Origin: Clostridia bacterium
GTDB taxonomy: Bacteria > Bacillota > Clostridia > Oscillospirales > CAG-382
Reading direction: 5' to 3'
Assembly: GCA_017537345.1 (NCBI GenBank)
Contig: JAFYKY010000005.1
Coordinates: 186,001-250,000 of the forward strand
DNA length: 64,000 nt
Below are positions 14,218-47,734 of this stretch, one piece after another (the first letter of the stretch is position 1; each line of letters starts with the position of its first letter). Below the pieces are notes generated by a model. That model was not told where the DNA came from. It saw nothing but the letters and a program-made list of their open reading frames with translations, and did no database searches. A program made the position numbers and the translations under genes.

Positions 14218-14925
14218 ATGGATTATGAAGGCAAACACTTTCCGGAGCAGGAAAGACAAGAAGAAAAAGAACGCTCATCCAAACTGGGCTGGACGATAAA
14301 GCAGATATTCAGATACACTTTCTGGGGCGTTTGCGCTTTGGTTTGGGGTATTATACTGTTCCGTATCTTCACAAGCACGGACGCAAGGCTGTTCAAGCAA
14401 ATGTATTTTTCCGATGATGCGGCAGTTATCGCGCAGAAATTGGGAGATGATTTTACCGTATATTCCCTGCAGACCGCTTCCACGATGAACGAAGACGGAA
14501 CTGTGCAGGTACGTAACAATTTTTACGCGGAAGACGCAAAGGAATTTGAGGTCGGTCTCCGCTACCGTATGAAGCATTTTACCGGCGAAAAGGACAAGGA
14601 ACTACCATTCACGGTTGAGCTGGTAGACAACAACGGTGTAAAACACCCCGTTTGCAACGTGGAATTTACCACCAAAAACGATTACGGCTTTGCCCGTGTT
14701 TCCTTTCAGGGCGTAGAGATAGACAAGACCACTAACCAGTACTATTTTGAAGACGGAGATTTTTCTCACGATACGCCGGATATTAACTCGGAAAACGGTC
14801 AGGTGCTGAACACACGCACATCTTTGTATCTGTATGTTTATTACGAAGGCAAAGAGGTTGCCAAACTGCAGGTCTACCACGATTTTGCAATTCTTGAAGA
14901 AGTAGACTATAAACCCGGGAGATAA
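14218..14925 (+). CDS. Single-pass membrane protein of unknown function
   Basis: Product of 235 residues that I do not recognise. A charged, Glu/Arg-rich cytoplasmic N-terminus (about 1-30) is followed by one membrane helix (FWGVCALVWGIILFRIF, about 36-52). The soluble extracytoplasmic domain of about 180 residues is rich in beta-strand pattern, with pieces such as YRMKHFTGEKDKELPFTVEL and LYLYVYYEGKEVAKLQVYHD. The ATG follows GAGG at good spacing, 12 bases after yifB and 5 bases before the next gene. That spacing suggests one transcript. Confidence 0.72.
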   Translation: MDYEGKHFPEQERQEEKERSSKLGWTIKQIFRYTFWGVCALVWGIILFRIFTSTDARLFKQMYFSDDAAVIAQKLGDDFTVYSLQTASTMNEDGTVQVRNNFYAEDAKEFEVGLRYRMKHFTGEKDKELPFTVELVDNNGVKHPVCNVEFTTKNDYGFARVSFQGVEIDKTTNQYYFEDGDFSHDTPDINSENGQVLNTRTSLYLYVYYEGKEVAKLQVYHDFAILEEVDYKPGR

Positions 14926-14930
14926 ATAAA

Positions 14931-15821
14931 ATGGGAAAAGCTACAAAACTTTACAACAAAACAAAACGAAAAGGCTTGTTTTCCGCAATTGCGGGCGGTG
15001 TTATGACCGCCGCAGGCATTGTGTTTTTGATCCTTCCTCTCGCCGTTGTTTCTGGAGTTGACGAAATAATACAAAACCTTGTGTTCCTTGGTGTGGGCGC
15101 GGTTTTGCTGATATCCGGTTTTTGCCTGCTTATTTCGGGGCTGACTCAATGGATGGTACGTCCCTATGCGGTGGTGTTCACCGATGAAGGCTTGTACGAT
15201 TTTACGGGAAAGCATAAAAACGGAATGTTTATTGAATGGAACAACATAAAAGATGCGCGTATTTACGGCAAAGGCGAATCCGCTTTTATCGGTATCGACC
15301 TTATAAGTCTTGATATGGCATACAAATACATATCCTCAAAGCAAAAACGGGAGATATGCGAAAACATTTCCAACAATATGCCCGCCGTAATTATCAGCCA
15401 GTACGAGATCGCAGAGCCTATCGGAAGCGTTGTAAAAGCAATTCTCCAGATACGATTGGGAACGAAAGCCGATATGTTCAGGATGGAAGAGCTTGAAAAC
15501 GCAGTGAATGTTGCGGAAGCGCCCGTTTTCTCCAAAGAGGAAATGGAAGAGCTGAACAAAACCGGCGACGTTGATTTTTCTTCCAAAGAAAAAGACGTTG
15601 AAAAAACGGAAGCAGTTTTGCCCGTTGCCGAAGAAACGGTTACCGAAATGTTGAATCCGCCGGAAGAACCCGAAGAGCCCGAAGAAGTTTCCGAAGAAGA
15701 GCTTAAAAAGCTTGATACCGCAGAAATAAACATTACCTCAACGGAAATGGCGAAAAAGATGTCCGATACAGCTTCTATCGACGATCTGCTTAAGATGCTT
15801 TCTATCGGCGACGATAAATAA
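14931..15821 (+). CDS. Two-helix membrane protein with PH-like domain and acidic tail
   Basis: A 296-residue protein not assigned to a named family. Two membrane helices (about residues 18-40 and 50-72) are followed by a segment (AVVFTDEGLYDFTGKHKNGM...IEWNNIKDARIYG) that has the pattern of bacterial PH-like or YcxB-like domains. The tail (about 190-296) is dominated by Glu, Pro and Lys and is probably disordered, ending in a short predicted helix. It shares its architecture of two helices plus PH-like domain with the gene after the sigma-factor fusion. It ends at a strong terminator, so the yifB transcript probably stops here. Confidence 0.7.
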   Translation: MGKATKLYNKTKRKGLFSAIAGGVMTAAGIVFLILPLAVVSGVDEIIQNLVFLGVGAVLLISGFCLLISGLTQWMVRPYAVVFTDEGLYDFTGKHKNGMFIEWNNIKDARIYGKGESAFIGIDLISLDMAYKYISSKQKREICENISNNMPAVIISQYEIAEPIGSVVKAILQIRLGTKADMFRMEELENAVNVAEAPVFSKEEMEELNKTGDVDFSSKEKDVEKTEAVLPVAEETVTEMLNPPEEPEEPEEVSEEELKKLDTAEINITSTEMAKKMSDTASIDDLLKMLSIGDDK

Positions 15822-15856: not shown

Positions 15857-15972
15857 ATGCGCAACCAATGATTGAGAGACGTTCAACTATCAAGTTATTG
15901 ACTCTTGCTGCGAAAAAGATGTATATTTAGGTAACGCGTTTTTAAAAATTTTCCGTTATTTTAATTATTCAC

Positions 15973-15985
15973 CCAACCTTTTTAA
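15973..15985 (+). promoter_or_regulatory. Putative ECF-type -35 element upstream of the sigma-factor fusion
   Basis: CCAACCTTTTTAA is identical over 13 bases to a site upstream of the other extended sigma-factor gene at 46.0 kb. AACC-containing -35 elements are typical of ECF promoters (family knowledge). The -10 is not clear here; TATAAG near 16000-16005 or GACAC at 15993-15997 are candidates. It lies 60-75 bases before the start codon, fitting autoregulation. Confidence 0.5.
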
Positions 15986-16047
15986 GCTTTTTGACACTCT
16001 TATAAGTGAAAGCCCGAAAAAGGCGACAAAAATTATGAGGATAAGTA

Positions 16048-18678
16048 ATGAACGGTTACAAAAACACTATTGACAAGGATCTGGTCAAAATGACTCTGGT
16101 CGGCGATGAAAAGGCGTACGAGGAATTGGTAACGCGGCACGAAAGAAGCGTGCACGGTACTGCTTTCAAGATAACCAAAAACAGGTATTCCGCGGAGGAC
16201 GCTTCGCAGGATGCTTTCGTTGCCGCCTGGACAAAGCTGGATACTCTTAAAGAAGGGGAAAAGTTCGGTTCGTGGATATGCGCCATTGCAAGAAACTGCG
16301 CGTTGCGTATTGCCAGCCACTACCGCTGCGCCGCGGCTGACATTAGCTTTGACGCTGTACAGTTCGCATTATACGAAGAAGGCGAAGGCGGCGAAACCGC
16401 TTCCCTGCCCGACCTTGCGTTTTTGAACGAAAGCGACCGATACGAAACCCTGCGAGATGCAGTGGAGGCGCTGACCGAGAAGCTGAGGGAAACCGTAAAA
16501 CTGCATTACTTTGAAGAATTATCTGTTGCCGAGATCGCCGAAAAGCTTTCCCTGCCGGTGGGGACGGTTAAATGGCGTCTTTCCGAAGGGCGTAAACAGC
16601 TCAGAAAGGAATACGGAATAATGGATAAAGAATACAACGAAAACGAAACCATTGTTGAACGCGTTATGAGGCAGGTCGAAGCGCTCAAGCTGCTTGCAAA
16701 GCAGACAGACAAGACCGAATTTAAAAAAGAATATAAAAAGGTGCTTGCAAACGTTGAAAGTCTGAGGGATTCAAAGGAAAAATCCCACGCGCTGGCAGAC
16801 GTGCTTATGCACGGCGTCTGGTGGACGGATGGCGAAAAAAGCGAAGAACTGTTTGAACGTATAAAAGCCGAGGCTATGGCAGGGCATAACGATGAGGTTA
16901 TGCAATCCGTGGTTTCGAGAGAAGCAGGTAAATACCACGGAAAAGAACGGGTGGATTATATGATAAACACTCAGGTTCCTTTTCTGGAAGAGAATAATCT
17001 TCCTCTTTCTCTTGGCTTTACGTGGTTCTGGGCAGGCTGGTCATACTCCTGCGAAAACGAAACCGAAAACGCCATAAAATGCTTTGACAAAGTCTTGGAT
17101 GTGCTTAAGCCCACGGACGTATATTACGCCAACGCGTTATCTGCAAAGAAATGTGAAAAATTCAGAGAAACTCACAGAAACAAGCAACGCAAGCAATATG
17201 GCGGCGGAGCAACGGGAGAGATATATAAGCTTATAAACGGCAGACTTATGTTCTGGTCCCAGCCGGGATATTCTTTCGGAAACACTCATAACGGCGAAAG
17301 TATATTCTGGAACGCGAGCCGATGCGACTGCATAGTATACGACGAAAATATGCAACCCGGCGACACGTACGTCTGCTCCGACAAGAAGAGCACGCTTGAA
17401 TACCGCGAAAACGGTATTACAGTGGAAACCAAAGCGGGAGTTTTTGAAAACTGCTCTCTTTGGATCTTCAAAGGGGACAGATACGGACTGACATACTGCG
17501 AAACCTATATCTGCCCCGGAGTGGGAATCGTTAAGCAACGCTCCGAAAGATACGAAGAGGATAACGTCTGGGAGTTGACAGCGTACACCGTAAAGGGCGG
17601 AAGCGGTCTTATACCCTTTGAAAAGGGCAACCGCTGGGAATACGCTCCCCTGCCCACGGACGGACCTGTAATAGCGGCAGACAGTTATTTTGAGGTGATC
17701 TCCTGCGAAAGCAATACCTTCGTAGTTACTGCGGGACACACGTCTCAGCTTTTGGGCTTGGGACACCCCACCACCTGGGAAGGCGCTATGAGTTGCTTCA
17801 CGCAAGGACATTATGTAAACGATGAGCACTTCAAACCGAAGATGATCGACGTAGAGGAGTATGTATGCCTTGCGGAAAAGTACGCGCAAACAAAGCGTGA
17901 AAAGGTTATAACCGCTGTTTCTGCCGACGTAATGCGGAGAATCCAAAGATGCTATCCTCCCATTAACCCCGATTACACAGAAAAAGGTAAATGGAACTTT
18001 TTCAGCACGCAAGCCGTTAACCAAAAGCCGGACGGAACGTTATGTGTAAATAGTTCTAAAAAGTTTTCCAACTACGGCTTCACCTGGAAGGGCAATATGT
18101 GGAATATCGGCACAGAGGGATACAAGGTGCTGTACGGCAATTTCCTTTTGGAGATACAGCAAGCTATAGGCTGTGTTTGGTCCGACGAATGGATACCCGG
18201 ATACAAAAAGACCTCCCCCTCCCGCGCGCAAAAGGGAGCGGAATATACGCTTGAAGTTTTGGATGACGAAACTGTCGTTACCCCCTGCGGAACATTTGAA
18301 AACTGCCGTCACGTAACCTACGAGCTTAAGGGAATGGATAAACACGGCGCCCAGTTCCAGGGCGGTAAAAAGGATATATGGTATGCGCAGGGAATCGGAA
18401 TAGTGAAATTCCAAACCGATTACTGGTATGACCGCACTCTTTCCTGCTTCTGGGAATTGAAGGCATACAAAGGAACGGGAGAAGGCTACTTCCCCGTTAT
18501 TGACGGCGCATACAGAAAATATGCTCCCGACACCATAGGAGACGGATGGAACGCTTCCGTTGAGCATACCTACGATACCGACGAAAGCGGAACTATAATC
18601 TTACACAACGTGCTGGGCACGAGAAACAGAGCGGAATACGAAGCGGACGATAACTGCAACGATTCCGAATACGATTGA
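16048..18678 (+). CDS. ECF sigma factor fused to a long repeated C-terminal domain
   Basis: The first 190 or so residues are a standard ECF sigma factor. Region 2 (about 20-85) contains YEELVTRHERSVHGTAFKI and DASQDAFVAAWTKL. Region 4 (about 135-190) contains LSVAEIAEKLSLPVGTVKWR. About 690 further residues follow, against a usual total of 160-200. A helical, TPR-like stretch (about 200-370) leads into two copies of a domain. Each copy has GxFENC (17437 and 18286 in DNA) followed 30-45 residues later by PGVGIVKQ or AQGIGIVKF. I see no membrane helix, so the extension appears cytoplasmic. No anti-sigma gene is adjacent, and the extension may do that job (inference). The start is chosen for GAGG at 8 bases. 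Confidence 0.82.
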   Translation: MNGYKNTIDKDLVKMTLVGDEKAYEELVTRHERSVHGTAFKITKNRYSAEDASQDAFVAAWTKLDTLKEGEKFGSWICAIARNCALRIASHYRCAAADISFDAVQFALYEEGEGGETASLPDLAFLNESDRYETLRDAVEALTEKLRETVKLHYFEELSVAEIAEKLSLPVGTVKWRLSEGRKQLRKEYGIMDKEYNENETIVERVMRQVEALKLLAKQTDKTEFKKEYKKVLANVESLRDSKEKSHALADVLMHGVWWTDGEKSEELFERIKAEAMAGHNDEVMQSVVSREAGKYHGKERVDYMINTQVPFLEENNLPLSLGFTWFWAGWSYSCENETENAIKCFDKVLDVLKPTDVYYANALSAKKCEKFRETHRNKQRKQYGGGATGEIYKLINGRLMFWSQPGYSFGNTHNGESIFWNASRCDCIVYDENMQPGDTYVCSDKKSTLEYRENGITVETKAGVFENCSLWIFKGDRYGLTYCETYICPGVGIVKQRSERYEEDNVWELTAYTVKGGSGLIPFEKGNRWEYAPLPTDGPVIAADSYFEVISCESNTFVVTAGHTSQLLGLGHPTTWEGAMSCFTQGHYVNDEHFKPKMIDVEEYVCLAEKYAQTKREKVITAVSADVMRRIQRCYPPINPDYTEKGKWNFFSTQAVNQKPDGTLCVNSSKKFSNYGFTWKGNMWNIGTEGYKVLYGNFLLEIQQAIGCVWSDEWIPGYKKTSPSRAQKGAEYTLEVLDDETVVTPCGTFENCRHVTYELKGMDKHGAQFQGGKKDIWYAQGIGIVKFQTDYWYDRTLSCFWELKAYKGTGEGYFPVIDGAYRKYAPDTIGDGWNASVEHTYDTDESGTIILHNVLGTRNRAEYEADDNCNDSEYD

Positions 18679-18698: not shown

Positions 18699-19397
18699 TT
18701 GGAAAAGAAAAATTTTAAGAAATATTTTACCCAAAGCAATCTGCTGTTTATTATCGGTGTTCTGACCGCAGTAGCAGGAGCGCTTCTTTACGGAATAAAC
18801 TATCTTTTCATACACGAATACTTTTTCTGGCAGAGCTCCGTGCTTATACTCGTTGCGGGCGCGGTAATGGTAATTTGCCATTTCTCTATCCGCGTACGTG
18901 ACGGCGCGGTGGATGAATACGCACAGTCATTCCACAGAGTAGCGGAAGAAGAGCTGGAAGCGTTTGTAAACGAAACCGAAAAAAGACCCGTAAAGGTATT
19001 TAATTTCACTACCGGATGTTACGCATCCGACGATCCCGACGTTAAAAATATGGTCGTAGGCGGTGATTCCACGCCGAGATGTGAAAAATATGCAAGCACG
19101 GCAATGGTGTATACAACACATAATCTTTTTACCGTAAACGCGCGTATCGATCTTATTACCGGTGACGTAACTGCCGAAAAAGCGGTGATCCCGCTTTCGG
19201 AAATAGTTAACGTACAGGTTTGCGATAAGAGCTATACAAAAGAGATCAAGGGTAAAAACAGATACGTTGAATGCTTTAAGCTTTTGGTTGAAACAAAGGA
19301 TAATACGCTTGTGTTCAACGTGCGCAACGATGCACTTACCGACGAAGCGGTTGCAAAGATAAGCCGCACTGCAGAAAGTAAACGTCAAGAAAGCTAA
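18699..19397 (+). CDS. Two-helix membrane protein with PH-like domain
   Basis: Starts with TTG, 8 bases after AAGGAGA; no better start is visible. Two membrane helices (about residues 14-35 and 42-62) precede a soluble domain. That domain contains a segment (MVYTTHNLFTVNARIDL...EKAVIPLSEIVNVQV) with the pattern of a bacterial PH-like domain. It begins 20 bases after the sigma-factor fusion and ends at a strong terminator, so the two are probably co-transcribed. A membrane partner or target of the sigma factor is possible, but nothing in the sequence proves it. Confidence 0.7.
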   Translation: MEKKNFKKYFTQSNLLFIIGVLTAVAGALLYGINYLFIHEYFFWQSSVLILVAGAVMVICHFSIRVRDGAVDEYAQSFHRVAEEELEAFVNETEKRPVKVFNFTTGCYASDDPDVKNMVVGGDSTPRCEKYASTAMVYTTHNLFTVNARIDLITGDVTAEKAVIPLSEIVNVQVCDKSYTKEIKGKNRYVECFKLLVETKDNTLVFNVRNDALTDEAVAKISRTAESKRQES

Positions 19398-39974: not shown

Positions 39975-40520
39975 TTACCGTCCTCCTTCACAGTAGTTTT
40001 TAAGCTTTTCCAACGCACGCTGATATTTTTTGCGCACCGATACCGTGTTCTTTTCGATTACGTTTGCTATCTCCGAATGAGAAAGACCTGCGTAAATACG
40101 AAGCTTTACTATCAGCTTTTCTTCATCGGAAAGAGTGTTCAGCGCATCCCGAAGCATAATTTGTTCAAGCGTTTGGGGCTCAAAAGCACTTTGAGCTTTT
40201 TCTTTTTCCGAAATTTCTTCCAAAGACAAAGTGTGCTTTTTTTCTTTGATCTTGTCTACAGCGCTGTTTTTTGTTACCTTCAATACCCACGCTTTTGGGT
40301 TTGTTCCCTTTTTATAGGTATGTGAAAGGCGGAGAATCCTTACCATCGTATCCTGCAGCACGTCTTCAGCTTCCCCAAAATCTCCCGTTATCTGGTATGC
40401 AACGGAAAGTATCATACGTCCGTATTCGTGATAAACGCGTTCAAGTGCGTTTTTATTGCCCAAAGCGATTTCCGCAATGGCAATATCGCAGGGATCTACC
40501 AAATTCCAAAATAGGATCAT
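39975..40520 (-). CDS. ECF-type RNA polymerase sigma factor
   Basis: A 181-residue sigma factor. Region 2 holds LERVYHEYGRMILSVAYQI and EAEDVLQDTMVRIL. Region 4 holds LSHSEIANVIEKNTVSVRKK. The start MILFWNLVDP follows GAGAGGTG and is preferred over an ORF start 24 codons upstream that lacks a ribosome site. It is coupled to the downstream membrane sensor gene. I cannot identify its own promoter with confidence. Confidence 0.92.
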   Translation of the reverse strand: MILFWNLVDPCDIAIAEIALGNKNALERVYHEYGRMILSVAYQITGDFGEAEDVLQDTMVRILRLSHTYKKGTNPKAWVLKVTKNSAVDKIKEKKHTLSLEEISEKEKAQSAFEPQTLEQIMLRDALNTLSDEEKLIVKLRIYAGLSHSEIANVIEKNTVSVRKKYQRALEKLKNYCEGGR

Positions 40521-40638
40521 ATAAACACCTCTCTTTCCTGTTTCATACAATATAACCGTAATTAAGATCAAAACGTGACACGTGGCCAACAAAAATTTTC
40601 ATCTGTTTTATGAAGGAGTTTACGGAAATATAATAACA

Positions 40639-40678: not shown

Positions 40679-42133
40679 TTAATCGTCTATATCCCGCTCG
40701 TAGCTTATGATCTCGCCGGTATCTGCGTTTACCTCGGCTTCGTATTCATATTTGCCGCAGCGGAATTCTATTTCGTATTTCCACAGATTGTCATCGTGGT
40801 CCAGTTCTATTGTCAGCCCTTTTATATCGTTTTCGCCGAGACCTGCGCGCTCAAGTACCTTATTGAGTGCATCTTCTTTGGCAATCAGGCCTTTGTTTGA
40901 AGGCGTATCGTTATTCACGACGTTATCGCGATTGTATCTGTCAGTCTCAACACAAATTATATCGCCCGTTACCGCATTCAATTCAAACTCGTAGTCGATC
41001 CCGTTATAGGACAGCTCCACCTCGTAAACGACGATTCCGTCGTCGGTTTGAAGCTCACATTCAAAGCCCGCCCACTTTTCGGTATCGGGGCAATAAGCGG
41101 CGATGATGTCTCTGACGGCTTGCTCGGTGATATATTTTCGTGAAAGTGCGTCGTGGATATAAAATCTTTCCTCTTTCTTGCAGGAAACTATATCGCCGCT
41201 AAGAGCGTTTACTTCGATTTCGTATTTATTCATTTCGGTAAAAAGCTCTATTTCGTAAAGCATAATACCGTCATCGTGCTCCAATTCGATATCAATGATA
41301 CCGTCAATATCATCCTCGGAAAGGGAGATATATTCAAGCGCAACAGCCTTTGCCTTTTTTTCGCCTATATACGCCTTATCGCTTGCAGTGCCGTTTACCT
41401 CGCCGTTTACCTCTGCGCCCACGCCTTTAAGAATAAGAGAAAGCTCGTTGATGCCCAGCTTTGCCAGAGCGGCGGGGTCGTACTTGGTATTGCAGGCGCA
41501 CAGGTCAAGTATAAGCTGCGCTTTTCCCAAAGTGATGTTCAGCTCCGATGCAAGAGAAGCCGCGTCGGTATTGGTGCGGTCTATCTGCAGGGAGATCACT
41601 GCCCCCTCTGAAGTATCTGTAGCGATAAGACTGCGGATAATACCGTTCAGCTTTTCACGGAGAGCGGCGTTTTTATCGGCGTCGTTATTATCCACGCTTA
41701 CCAGCACCGAATTTGCAAGCTCATCTATATATCCGTTGGTGATCATTGAACCGATAAGCGCGTTCAGCGCCACCTCTATGTCGGTTCCCACAAGGTCCAT
41801 ATTGCCCAGTATCTTTTGTCCGTCCTCGTTAAGAGCCTTTATCTCCACGACAACGTCTTTTTTATTGAGTTTCATTTCGATACTTGGATTTACGTCTATG
41901 GAAACAACGCTTGCAACCGCGTTATTTCCCGTATACACAAGTACACCCGCAAGCACGCCGAACAGCATAACGAATGCTGCCGCGGCGGCAACGATAGCTA
42001 TGGGTAATCTTCTTTTTTGTTTCACGAGCATCGCCGTTCCTTTCCCGCTTACGCTGTCAGAAACAACGGTTTCGAGAATATCGGGGGTGATAGCCGTAAA
42101 AGCATTTTTAATTTTGTTTTCTGTTTGTTTCAT
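40679..42133 (-). CDS. RsgI-family anti-sigma factor with three PepSY domains
   Basis: A 484-residue single-pass membrane protein. The short N-terminus MKQTENKIKNAFTAITPDIL is cytoplasmic, and the membrane helix lies at about 43-69. The extracytoplasmic region begins VVSIDVNPSIEMKLN and contains EIKALNEDGQKIL, the hallmark of the RsgI middle domain. Three PepSY-like repeats follow, ending in VNALSGDIVS, LNAVTGDIIC and VNADTGEIIS. Its start overlaps the sigma-factor stop by 4 bases. RsgI proteins sense polysaccharide or envelope state and sequester a sigma factor (family knowledge). The partner here is ECF-like rather than SigI. Confidence 0.9.
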   Translation of the reverse strand: MKQTENKIKNAFTAITPDILETVVSDSVSGKGTAMLVKQKRRLPIAIVAAAAAFVMLFGVLAGVLVYTGNNAVASVVSIDVNPSIEMKLNKKDVVVEIKALNEDGQKILGNMDLVGTDIEVALNALIGSMITNGYIDELANSVLVSVDNNDADKNAALREKLNGIIRSLIATDTSEGAVISLQIDRTNTDAASLASELNITLGKAQLILDLCACNTKYDPAALAKLGINELSLILKGVGAEVNGEVNGTASDKAYIGEKKAKAVALEYISLSEDDIDGIIDIELEHDDGIMLYEIELFTEMNKYEIEVNALSGDIVSCKKEERFYIHDALSRKYITEQAVRDIIAAYCPDTEKWAGFECELQTDDGIVVYEVELSYNGIDYEFELNAVTGDIICVETDRYNRDNVVNNDTPSNKGLIAKEDALNKVLERAGLGENDIKGLTIELDHDDNLWKYEIEFRCGKYEYEAEVNADTGEIISYERDIDD

Positions 42134-42708
42134 TCCGTTCCTCCGTCAGCAAGTATCTTTCTTAATTTTCGTATTGCGCGGCTGTATTTTGAAAGAACAG
42201 TCGGCAAAGGCAGAGAAAGAATATCCGCAATTTCCCGATGCTTGAAACCGGAAACCGCGTGAAGAGTAACGATACGCAATTCCTCGTCCGAAAGCTTTTC
42301 CATACACATACGGATGATCACAGCATCCTCGGTGGAAACATCGGAAGACAACGCAAAGGTTTCTTCCCAATTTTCAGGGCAGTAATCTGCGTTTTTTGCT
42401 CTTTTTCTAAGCTTCATAAGACAGTGGTTTTTGGTTATTGTAAGCATCCACGCCAGCGGTTTTCCTCTGTCTTCATAGCTCGCCGCAGAGGCGGAAACGG
42501 TGAGATACACGTCGTGCATAACGTCTTCCGCATCGTGACTGTTTTTTAAAATTGACAGCGCAAAGGAGTATATACTTACAGAGGTTAATTTATACAGTTC
42601 ACCCAGACTATGAGCGTCGCCGCCGGCAATCGATAAAATGAGCTCTGCCAGCCTGCGGTCATCCGTGTGAACGGTTTTGTGCGCCGTTGATAAGCCGCTT
42701 AACATCAT
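42130..42708 (-). CDS. ECF-type sigma factor paired with the RsgI/PepSY protein
   Basis: A 192-residue sigma factor. Region 2 is LGELYKLTSVSIYSFALSI and DAEDVMHDVYLTV. Region 4 is FKHREIADILSLPLPTVLSK. The start MMLSGLSTAH lies behind AAAGGAGGAA, whereas the longest ORF start has no ribosome site. The stop overlaps the start of the anti-sigma gene. It follows a GNAT gene by 69 bases and may share its promoter. Confidence 0.93.
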   Translation of the reverse strand: MMLSGLSTAHKTVHTDDRRLAELILSIAGGDAHSLGELYKLTSVSIYSFALSILKNSHDAEDVMHDVYLTVSASAASYEDRGKPLAWMLTITKNHCLMKLRKRAKNADYCPENWEETFALSSDVSTEDAVIIRMCMEKLSDEELRIVTLHAVSGFKHREIADILSLPLPTVLSKYSRAIRKLRKILADGGTE

Positions 42709-42777
42709 CTGTATTCCTCCTTTCATAACATTAATGCGGAAAAACGCCGTTTTATTGCAAAACAAAAAAATATTTTT

Positions 42778-46011: not shown

Positions 46012-46038
46012 CCAACCTTTTTAAAACACAGTGTCTAT
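46012..46038 (+). promoter_or_regulatory. Putative ECF-type promoter of the sigma/wHTH gene
   Basis: CCAACCTTTTTAA (46012-46024) followed 15 bases after AACC by GTCTAT (46033-46038). Both parts fit the general ECF pattern of an AAC-type -35 and a GTC-type -10. The 13-base -35 region is identical to that upstream of the other extended sigma gene at 15973. Confidence 0.58.
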
Positions 46039-46069
46039 ATGGTTGAAAGCTTGCAAGCGAGGAAAACAA

Positions 46070-47734
46070 ATGAACAGACAAGACGCCGAAAAAATTATAA
46101 CCGAATATCTTAAGCCAATATTCGGATTTGCGCTGAAGCGGTGCAAGAACGCCCAAGATGCGGAAGATCTTTCGCAGGATATCGTTTTAAAAGCATTTAA
46201 AGCGCTTATTGTAAAGGAAAATATCGAAAACACCGATAAATATATCTGGACTATTGCCCACAATGCGCTGAGCAATTACTACCGCGATACAGCTAAAAGC
46301 GTTATCGGAATATCGGTTGAGGAATTTTCTGAAACAATTGCAGATCCCGATTACAAGGAATTTACCGATGAAAACGAGGAATCGTTGATGCGCCTTCAAA
46401 GCGAGATAGCATATCTATCCAAGCTTCAAAGGAAGATCGTGATTGCGTATTATTTTGAAAATAAAAAGCAAGCAGATATTGCAAAAGCTCTGAATATTCC
46501 TCTCGGTACGGTTAAATGGCACTTGTTTGAAGCAAAAAAAGAGTTAAAAAAAGGTATGGATATTATGAGAAAATCGAGCGAACTAAAATTCAATCCAATA
46601 AAATTCACTTCATACGGAATCAACGGTTCTGTAGGCAAAAGATTTCCCGACGAATTCTTCCGTTCTGCGCTTACGCAAAATATTTGCTACTGTGTACGTA
46701 ATACGGCAAAGACCGTTAACGAGATCGCAGATGACCTTGGCGTTTCTCCCGTGTACGTGGAAACAGAAGTTGAATTCCTTGAAGAATACGGCTTCCTGCA
46801 AGCACAAAATAATAAGTTTATTGTAAACTTCATTATCAGCGAGCCTACTGCAGAATTACTTACCATACAGAATAATATGTACAAGAGCGCGGCAAAGCTG
46901 TTCGCCAACGATCTATTTGATGAGCTGACCACATCCGGCATTCTTGACGATCCCGACATTTGGTGCGGACAGACTGATATGCCCATCTCCTTAACAGAGT
47001 CTCCCAAAGCGGACAAAAACTTCGTTTTATGGTCGCTGATCCCCTACATTGCCGCTTTGTCGGGCGAAAAGCTGATGGATGAAAAAATTTCTTTTGAAGA
47101 TGTTGCAACGATCCGTCCGGATGGTGCACATAACATCTACCACGCATCTGTGGTGCCGGATGAAACAGTTTTTCCTGATGACTATGTTTATATGAAAAAC
47201 TGGTGCGGTCCCAGGTGGAACGGCTACGGGGAACACATCCTTTGGCAGATCGACAGCGAATGGTCCAGCCGAGAAGATGATTTCAGGCTTAAGTATTCTG
47301 AAGAATCCGCGCGAATTCTTTCACTCTATGAAAGAGAGTTTGAAGGCTGTCTTTCAAAGGACGAGTATACTTGGCTTTCAGAGCGCGGATACGTGAAAAC
47401 CAACGGAGATTATGATGGCTACTTCAAGTCAGCGTGGCAGATCGTTGTGCTGGCAAGCGAAGGTATTAAGGATAGACTCCTTAACATCGGTGAACGAATC
47501 AAAGAAAAGTACAAGACTGATTTTGACACGCTGAAGGCACCTTATGCGGCGGCTATATTAAAATCGGTTCCCGCACATCTGCGAAAAGCAAAAGAGTATG
47601 AGCTGCAGTTTGTGTTTCATTCCGACGGATGGTTTCTGCTTCACTGCATTACAGCGTTACTGAATAACGGCAAACTGAAACTGCCCACCGAAGAACAAAA
47701 GAAATCTCTTACCACGCTGATAATCAAAAACTAA
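46070..47734 (+). CDS. ECF sigma factor with C-terminal winged-helix and unknown domains
   Basis: The ATG is chosen for GAGG at 7-base spacing; a longer ORF start would lie inside the putative promoter. The 554 residues begin with a sigma factor. Region 2 (about 8-75) contains DAEDLSQDIVLKAFKAL, and region 4 (about 115-165) contains KQADIAKALNIPLGTVKWHL. A winged-helix-like segment follows (about 205-255, NEIADDLGVSPVYVETEVEF), then about 290 residues of unknown fold rich in Trp and acidic residues. No membrane helix is visible and no anti-sigma gene is adjacent. Control by the C-terminal extension is inferred. Confidence 0.85.
   Translation: MNRQDAEKIITEYLKPIFGFALKRCKNAQDAEDLSQDIVLKAFKALIVKENIENTDKYIWTIAHNALSNYYRDTAKSVIGISVEEFSETIADPDYKEFTDENEESLMRLQSEIAYLSKLQRKIVIAYYFENKKQADIAKALNIPLGTVKWHLFEAKKELKKGMDIMRKSSELKFNPIKFTSYGINGSVGKRFPDEFFRSALTQNICYCVRNTAKTVNEIADDLGVSPVYVETEVEFLEEYGFLQAQNNKFIVNFIISEPTAELLTIQNNMYKSAAKLFANDLFDELTTSGILDDPDIWCGQTDMPISLTESPKADKNFVLWSLIPYIAALSGEKLMDEKISFEDVATIRPDGAHNIYHASVVPDETVFPDDYVYMKNWCGPRWNGYGEHILWQIDSEWSSREDDFRLKYSEESARILSLYEREFEGCLSKDEYTWLSERGYVKTNGDYDGYFKSAWQIVVLASEGIKDRLLNIGERIKEKYKTDFDTLKAPYAAAILKSVPAHLRKAKEYELQFVFHSDGWFLLHCITALLNNGKLKLPTEEQKKSLTTLIIKN

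Follow-up and report, generated by a model that had tools for sequence, protein, structure and literature searches.

A clostridial ECF sigma factor with a large, predicted cytoplasmic tail of doubled DUF3108-like units and an ECF-type promoter before its own gene

We analysed a stretch of 64,000 nucleotides from a Clostridia bacterium (the window) and focused on one gene that joins an ECF sigma factor to a long C-terminal tail. ECF sigma factors usually comprise 160-200 residues. The positions of the gene, its parts, its upstream signals and the following gene are collected in Table 1.

Table 1. Features of the sigma-tail fusion locus (positions are those of the window)
Feature	Position	Strand	Basis or remark
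AACCAATGATTGA box, before the sigmaA-type promoter	15863..15875	+	alignment of five congeneric species
sigmaA-type promoter, TTGACT-18-TATATT	15898..15927	+	consensus scan 10/12; conserved in five species of the genus
ECF-type promoter of the fusion gene	15972..16004	+	conserved in five species of the genus; family-wide site
Ribosome-binding site GAGGAT (GAGGA 6 nt before ATG)	16037..16042	+	read from sequence
Sigma-tail fusion gene	16048..18678	+	876 aa, one uninterrupted ORF, ATG start
ECF sigma factor part, residues 7-189	16066..16614	+	profile matches and model
TPR-like helical part, residues 202-375, nine helices	16651..17172	+	AlphaFold2 pLDDT mostly 80-98; TPR profile matches
DUF3108-like beta unit 1, residues 384-514	17197..17589	+	model, profile, hhalign
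DUF3108-like beta unit 2, residues 517-812	17596..18483	+	Pfam DUF3108_like, model
Start of third unit, residues 813-860, truncated here	18484..18627	+	hhalign
Downstream membrane-protein gene	18699..19397	+	21 nt past the stop, own Shine-Dalgarno AAGGAG

The profile search of the 876-aa protein detected region 2 (residues 27-87; Sigma70_r2, E 1.2e-12) and region 4 (residues 133-187; Sigma70_r4_2, E 1.9e-13), and only a short linker lies between them, which is the layout of an ECF (group IV) factor. The motifs of both regions were conserved and the sigma parts intact, and SigW was the nearest of the named families. A Kyte-Doolittle scan of the tail, about 687 residues long, found no hydrophobic stretch over the threshold (19 residues, 1.6). 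Neither a signal peptide nor a lipobox was present in the fusion protein, whose N-terminus is the sigma factor and contains no hydrophobic segment. These results bear out two statements of an earlier note on this DNA, that an ECF sigma factor here carries about 690 extra residues within a single ORF and that its tail has no membrane helix, and the lack of both signal peptide and membrane helix supports a third, that the tail appears cytoplasmic.

The structure prediction that the earlier note had proposed for the tail was run using AlphaFold2 with a 67-sequence alignment, and it yielded confident helices, two beta units and the start of a third. The mean pLDDT was 85.4, with most of the tail above 90. 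Disorder was limited to residues 91-132 (the sigma2-sigma4 linker), 189-199 (the junction) and the extreme C-terminus; owing to the disordered junctions, the placement of sigma relative to tail in this model is unreliable. The TPR-like part noted earlier after region 4 was recovered as nine helices with a TPR-like layout in the model, the TPR profile matches being weak, and no internal repeat was found when this part was tested for one. It contains, just after sigma, the most conserved motif of the tail, HALADVLxxGxWW, and W258, W259 and N281 are invariant in it. The HALADVLxxGxWW region is a reasonable first candidate for the contact between tail and sigma.

Modelled alone, the beta part (residues 380-860) reached a pLDDT of 93.6 and a pTM of 0.86. 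Unit 1 carries the motifs GVFENC (464-469) and GVGIVK (491-496), and unit 2 begins with GNRWEY, contains a helical insert (577-635) and carries GTFENC (748-753) and GIGIVK (782-787). The hhalign comparison of unit 1 (380-516) with unit 2 (700-812) gave a probability of 98.7 and an E-value of 2.6e-16, confirming the doubled GxFENC...GIGIVK domain that had been read from the letters, and the third-unit start (805-866) matched the start of unit 2 at E 1.5e-5. Relatives of about 1,050 aa extend past this start into another TPR-like stretch, with TPR_2 matches at the C-terminus of the paralog L009. The helical insert (575-650) was compared with the TPR-like part, and the two showed no homology. The Pfam family DUF3108_like (PF21347) matched the tail alone at 28.9 bits (cut-off 27) and the whole protein at 22.8 bits, and it matched all 67 aligned members at E <= 0.01. 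C469 and C753, the only invariant cysteines of the tail, were present in 67/67 members; since they belong to the GxFxNC motif common to exported proteins, a structural role is more likely for them than redox sensing.

The resemblance of the tail domain to domains of secreted lipoproteins, which the earlier note had pointed out, was confirmed by lipobox-bearing homologues and by two solved structures matching the profile, 4fvs ('putative lipoprotein', E 1.3e-5) and 3fzx ('putative exported protein', E 2.4e-5). Other Clostridia carry a single unit in lipobox signal-peptide proteins of 212-240 aa (L230-L232, L234, L235, L237, L241). A longer exported protein ending in a DUF3108-like unit was also seen (L233). 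Among 40 genomes around the host, the DUF3108_like matches at E <= 0.01 all fell within this ECF family, bar one weak match. Judged from these sequences, a normally exported domain appears to have been doubled, retained inside the cell and joined to a sigma factor.

The genome search for sigma factors with the same tail, also proposed earlier, was performed as a collection scan with the tail as query, and it returned at least 186 relatives in Clostridia. The 80 relatives kept come mostly from ruminant and other animal guts and are all labelled Clostridia or close kin, except one MAG labelled Bacteroides. Sigma and tail share one ORF at 75 of these 80 loci, and in the five others the ORF is split (L095, L139), the contig ends (L129) or no in-frame sigma is present (L097, L126). 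Four orthologs from the same genus, 62-84% identical, are fused at the same place. The fusion was found at E <= 1e-30 in 16 of 60 sampled relatives from the host's family and was absent from the sampled genomes of 23 other families in its order, and a class-wide sample of 291 genomes held full-length members in four further families. A divergent branch from other families (L228, L243, L064) has the same architecture at 845-886 aa with weaker tail similarity. Members fall into two size classes, about 850-915 aa and 1,045-1,150 aa; the host genome holds one of each, 36% identical, and two same-genus genomes likewise hold one of each, indicating that the duplication is older than the genus.

Measured against the same-genus orthologs, dN/dS was 0.06-0.21 for each of sigma, the helical part and the beta units, which points to purifying selection over the whole length, with the tail as constrained as sigma. 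The doubt attached to the earlier note, that the reads hide a frameshift or a missed stop around residue 200, is excluded by the low dN/dS on both sides of the junction and by the fusion at the same place in the four orthologs and dozens more. The usual size of ECF factors could suggest that a sequencing or assembly error had fused an ordinary ECF gene with an unrelated one downstream of it, but the same fusion at 75/80 independent loci and in four congeneric species, and the low dN/dS across the junction, leave this reading with a negligible probability; we rejected read-through, frameshift and assembly artefact on these grounds. The architecture is thus real and conserved, and no description of it was found in the literature searched. 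A mobile origin was rejected as well, because plasmid records gave sigma matches only and none with the tail, and an anti-phage system was rejected because the PADLOC matches were weak and confined to the helix-turn-helix region.

We clustered the neighbours of the 80 loci. The results showed no gene family common beyond the genus, and no canonical co-encoded anti-sigma gene beside sigma was among such shared families, indicating that no anti-sigma, kinase or partner gene is conserved. The membrane-protein gene that follows the fusion gene was found within the genus only, where the two probably share a transcript, and it has no Pfam family. The two genes before the sigma gene (14931-15821 and 14218-14925) look membrane-anchored and are genus-only, with no Pfam family at threshold. 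The earlier proposal that the tail replaces an anti-sigma factor gains indirect support: since no neighbour is conserved beyond the genus while the fusion is kept in 75/80 loci, the tail may take that role.

Upstream of the fusion gene, the ECF-type promoter consists of a -35 element CCCAACCTTTTT at 15972-15983 and a -10 element TCTTATA at 15998-16004. The -35 before the gene appears to be of the AAC type, and the -10 reads TCT/GTCT, not CGT. The exact AACCAATGATTGA box that precedes the sigmaA-type promoter occurs once per genome in the four genus genomes searched, always at this site. Most family members have the pattern CCCAACCTTTT...TCT just upstream: an equivalent site was located near 62-66 of the 79 family ORFs checked, the AACC-to-TCT spacing was 18 nt in 51 of 62 family promoters, and the site stood at 64/75 family genes compared with 6/371 other same-strand genes of the same loci.

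A promoter sequence model was built from 20 family promoters and run over 13 whole genomes. It recovered a family gene's own promoter in 13/13 genomes, the best matches being family promoters; in most genomes the own promoter scored at E 1e-8 to 1e-5 and other matches lay near chance, with weaker results in G010, G012 and G031. The promoter of the fusion gene was the best genome-wide match (31.5 bits, E 3.1e-7). Recovery of some promoters is expected because some model members came from the same genomes, and the informative point is that no other site comes close to the family promoters. Six matches at E <= 1 were obtained in the host genome: two family promoters, two upstream of other ECF genes (C22:72873, C2:232012) and two inside coding sequences (C1:72425, a LOG-like gene, and C9:30245, purB). 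The regulon search of the host genome, with fixed patterns and the promoter model, gave non-family matches only at E 0.04-0.36. No target beyond family genes was visible in the 13 genomes, which is a limit of detection and not proof of absence. Because the own-gene promoters are conserved and are the strongest model matches, self-activation appears well supported by the sequence. Autoregulation is predicted for about 55% of ECFs, and its positive form is usual (PMC8103513).

Two further sets of observations were made on promoters and on other ECF genes. In 39/62 family promoters the -10 is closely followed by an exact 8-bp palindrome (examples are AAGCGCTT, GCAGCTGC, GAACGTTC and GTAGCTAC), the commonest distance being 7-8 nt after TCT. 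Shuffles gave an expectation of 2.2, and the observed count is inflated by the relatedness of the sequences. The palindromes lie upstream of family genes in L070-L143 and not in the fusion gene's own clade; they vary in sequence and keep their symmetry, and in this they would resemble the operator of a dimeric protein. The host genome also encodes ten further ECFs, 434-574 aa long, whose large tails are soluble and free of membrane helices, one at 46031-47734 (+) of the window and the other nine elsewhere in the host genome, G000 (C1:57k; C2:8k, 21k, 162k, 175k; C4:91k; C7:101k; C16:112k, 155k). In most of the ten, a winged-helix-like stretch follows region 4 at a distance of about 40 residues. 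Several are preceded by a AACCTTTT -35 of their own, combined with -10 elements that differ between them, suggesting a set of separate self-regulated ECFs. A canonical pair was found at L019:2265-4949 (C22 of the host genome), where an ECF of about 190 aa is followed directly by a 703-aa membrane protein, likely its anti-sigma factor, with AACCTTTTT upstream. Two ECF sigma factors of ordinary size lie about 1.5 kb apart in the window, at 39975-40592 and 42130-42765 (-).

With moderate confidence, we favour the reading that the protein is a one-piece cytoplasmic ECF that activates its own gene and is gated in cis by the fused tail acting as a sensor. The sequence itself documents the fusion and its conservation, the identity of the domains, the ECF-type promoter of the gene, and the lack of a membrane helix and of a conserved partner gene. 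In the proposed mechanism, the sigma domain would recruit RNA polymerase to the CCCAACCTTTT...TCT promoter before its own gene, a promoter probably read by this sigma factor itself, and the use of this promoter would give positive feedback over basal sigmaA transcription. The tail, with its TPR-like solenoid and two DUF3108-like beta units, would stand in for the anti-sigma factor; the flexible junction would tether it to sigma and let it cover or release sigma. The tail probably binds a cytoplasmic ligand or a protein partner and would control sigma in cis in response to it, and as the only constantly associated regulator it would set the activity of sigma. By analogy, its action could be inhibitory, as in ECF41, or enabling, as in ECF42 and CorE.

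Against the favoured reading stands that no regulon was seen beyond the own gene, which is odd for a stress switch. Alternatively, the tail itself may be the effector: sigma would then mainly amplify its own gene, and the work, for example binding in the cytoplasm, would be done by a TPR scaffold with beta clamps. The only above-chance promoter matches in the 13 genomes precede family genes, gene context is not conserved, and the tail is constrained as much as sigma, all of which fit this reading. However, real target promoters may differ too much from the self-promoter for the model to pick them up, Pfam and other profile searches of the tail matched no enzymatic or toxin-like family, and joining a sigma domain to an effector is a costly arrangement; we therefore regard an effector role as unlikely. 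A further reading, in which about a dozen one-protein circuits form closed self-amplifying switches, each sigma targeting only its own gene through its own -10 and each tail both sensing and responding, seems quite improbable.

Control of sigma could also come mainly in trans, through a kinase, proteolysis or an anti-sigma factor encoded elsewhere, with the tail only localising the protein through protein contacts. The TPR-like part speaks for this, and ECF42 offers a precedent, where the TPR extension is essential and presumed to bind a protein partner (PMC8999054). However, no conserved neighbour qualifies as the partner and nothing in ECF42 corresponds to the beta units, so control in trans is rather unlikely. 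The beta units may instead form an RseB/MucB-like clam that detects lipid or mislocalised lipoprotein, now intracellular and joined to sigma, which would suit a unit common to lipoproteins; foldseek lists MucA/MucB 6jau at E 4.2e-4 and probability 0.77. The 6jau alignment is poor, though (TM 0.10-0.16, rmsd 22 A), ARO/CYC and SRPBCC folds score as well, and the idea derives from fold search rather than sequence similarity. Foldseek returned only sigma factors and noise with the full model, and with the beta part it returned no match of usable TM-score and no clear ligand-binding precedent. For lack of a usable TM-score, the likeness to RseB/MucB and to ARO/CYC serves only as a lead, and we consider the clam very unlikely.

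C-terminal extensions of ECF sigma factors are known, and the few that have been studied are mostly small. The present family is large and coherent, with its relatives in Clostridia experimentally untouched, and relatives export its tail domain as a lipoprotein. With a single, monocistronic gene one could examine how an anti-sigma factor can be replaced by a fused domain and, because the family promoter appears almost only at its own gene, what purpose a sigma factor serves when it has no other visible targets. The mechanism can be tested with one protein and one promoter. If self-activation gated by the tail holds, gene circuits for anaerobes would gain a useful component, a compact sigma factor that activates itself and carries its own sensor.

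Among known systems, ECF41, ECF42 and ECF238 have cis-acting C-terminal extensions that replace anti-sigma factors; the ECF41 tail is reported to be inhibitory, and the ECF42 and CorE tails are reported to be needed (PMC8999054). ECF42 (Streptomyces venezuelae, Pseudomonas putida ECF-10) is similar in being soluble, in its TPR-like stretch after region 4 and in having no classical anti-sigma factor. However, its tail has about 200 residues, whereas the tail here has about 690, mostly DUF3108-like beta units, and no conserved neighbouring partner gene accompanies the present family, which is found in Clostridia. The TPR-like helices, seen in the model and weakly matched by profiles, are followed here by 500 residues of other folds. 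ECF41 (SnoaL-like; SigJ, Ecf41Bli) likewise has a soluble domain fused to its C-terminus, presumed to act on sigma in cis, and no anti-sigma factor, but the SnoaL-like domain that marks ECF41, ECF56 and ECF205 is absent here, no such family being found after region 4 at E <= 1, and the tail is far larger and of a different fold. CorE/CorE2 (ECF238) likewise carry an on-board sensor, putative in our case, on an autonomous ECF, but their metal-sensing cysteine-rich domain is absent here, the invariant C469 and C753 belonging to GxFxNC. The transmembrane helix in the extension of ECF48/52/53, with their fused membrane anti-sigma factor, is also absent. Since these defining extensions were tested and are absent, the family is not of the ECF41, ECF238 or fused membrane anti-sigma type.

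ECF262, represented by Ruminococcus albus SFB89493.1, appears in a review (PMC8999054, table 2) as a group whose C-terminal extension has no defined mechanism. It resembles the present family as a clostridial ECF with an extension, a likeness known from the review's listing and not from sequence, and the family may belong to this already named group, which has no assigned function. The tail matches none of the defined-function ECF extensions tested, which for these extensions answers the earlier concern that it might be one of them. The exported DUF3108-like lipoproteins (PF21347; 4fvs, 3fzx) have the same beta unit, including GxFxNC...GVGLVK, but theirs is single and exported, whereas here it is doubled, carries a helical insert, is predicted to be cytoplasmic and is fused to sigma. 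The family is unusual in having no other visible target, in the size and make-up of its tail, and in carrying a lipoprotein domain that is now cytoplasmic.
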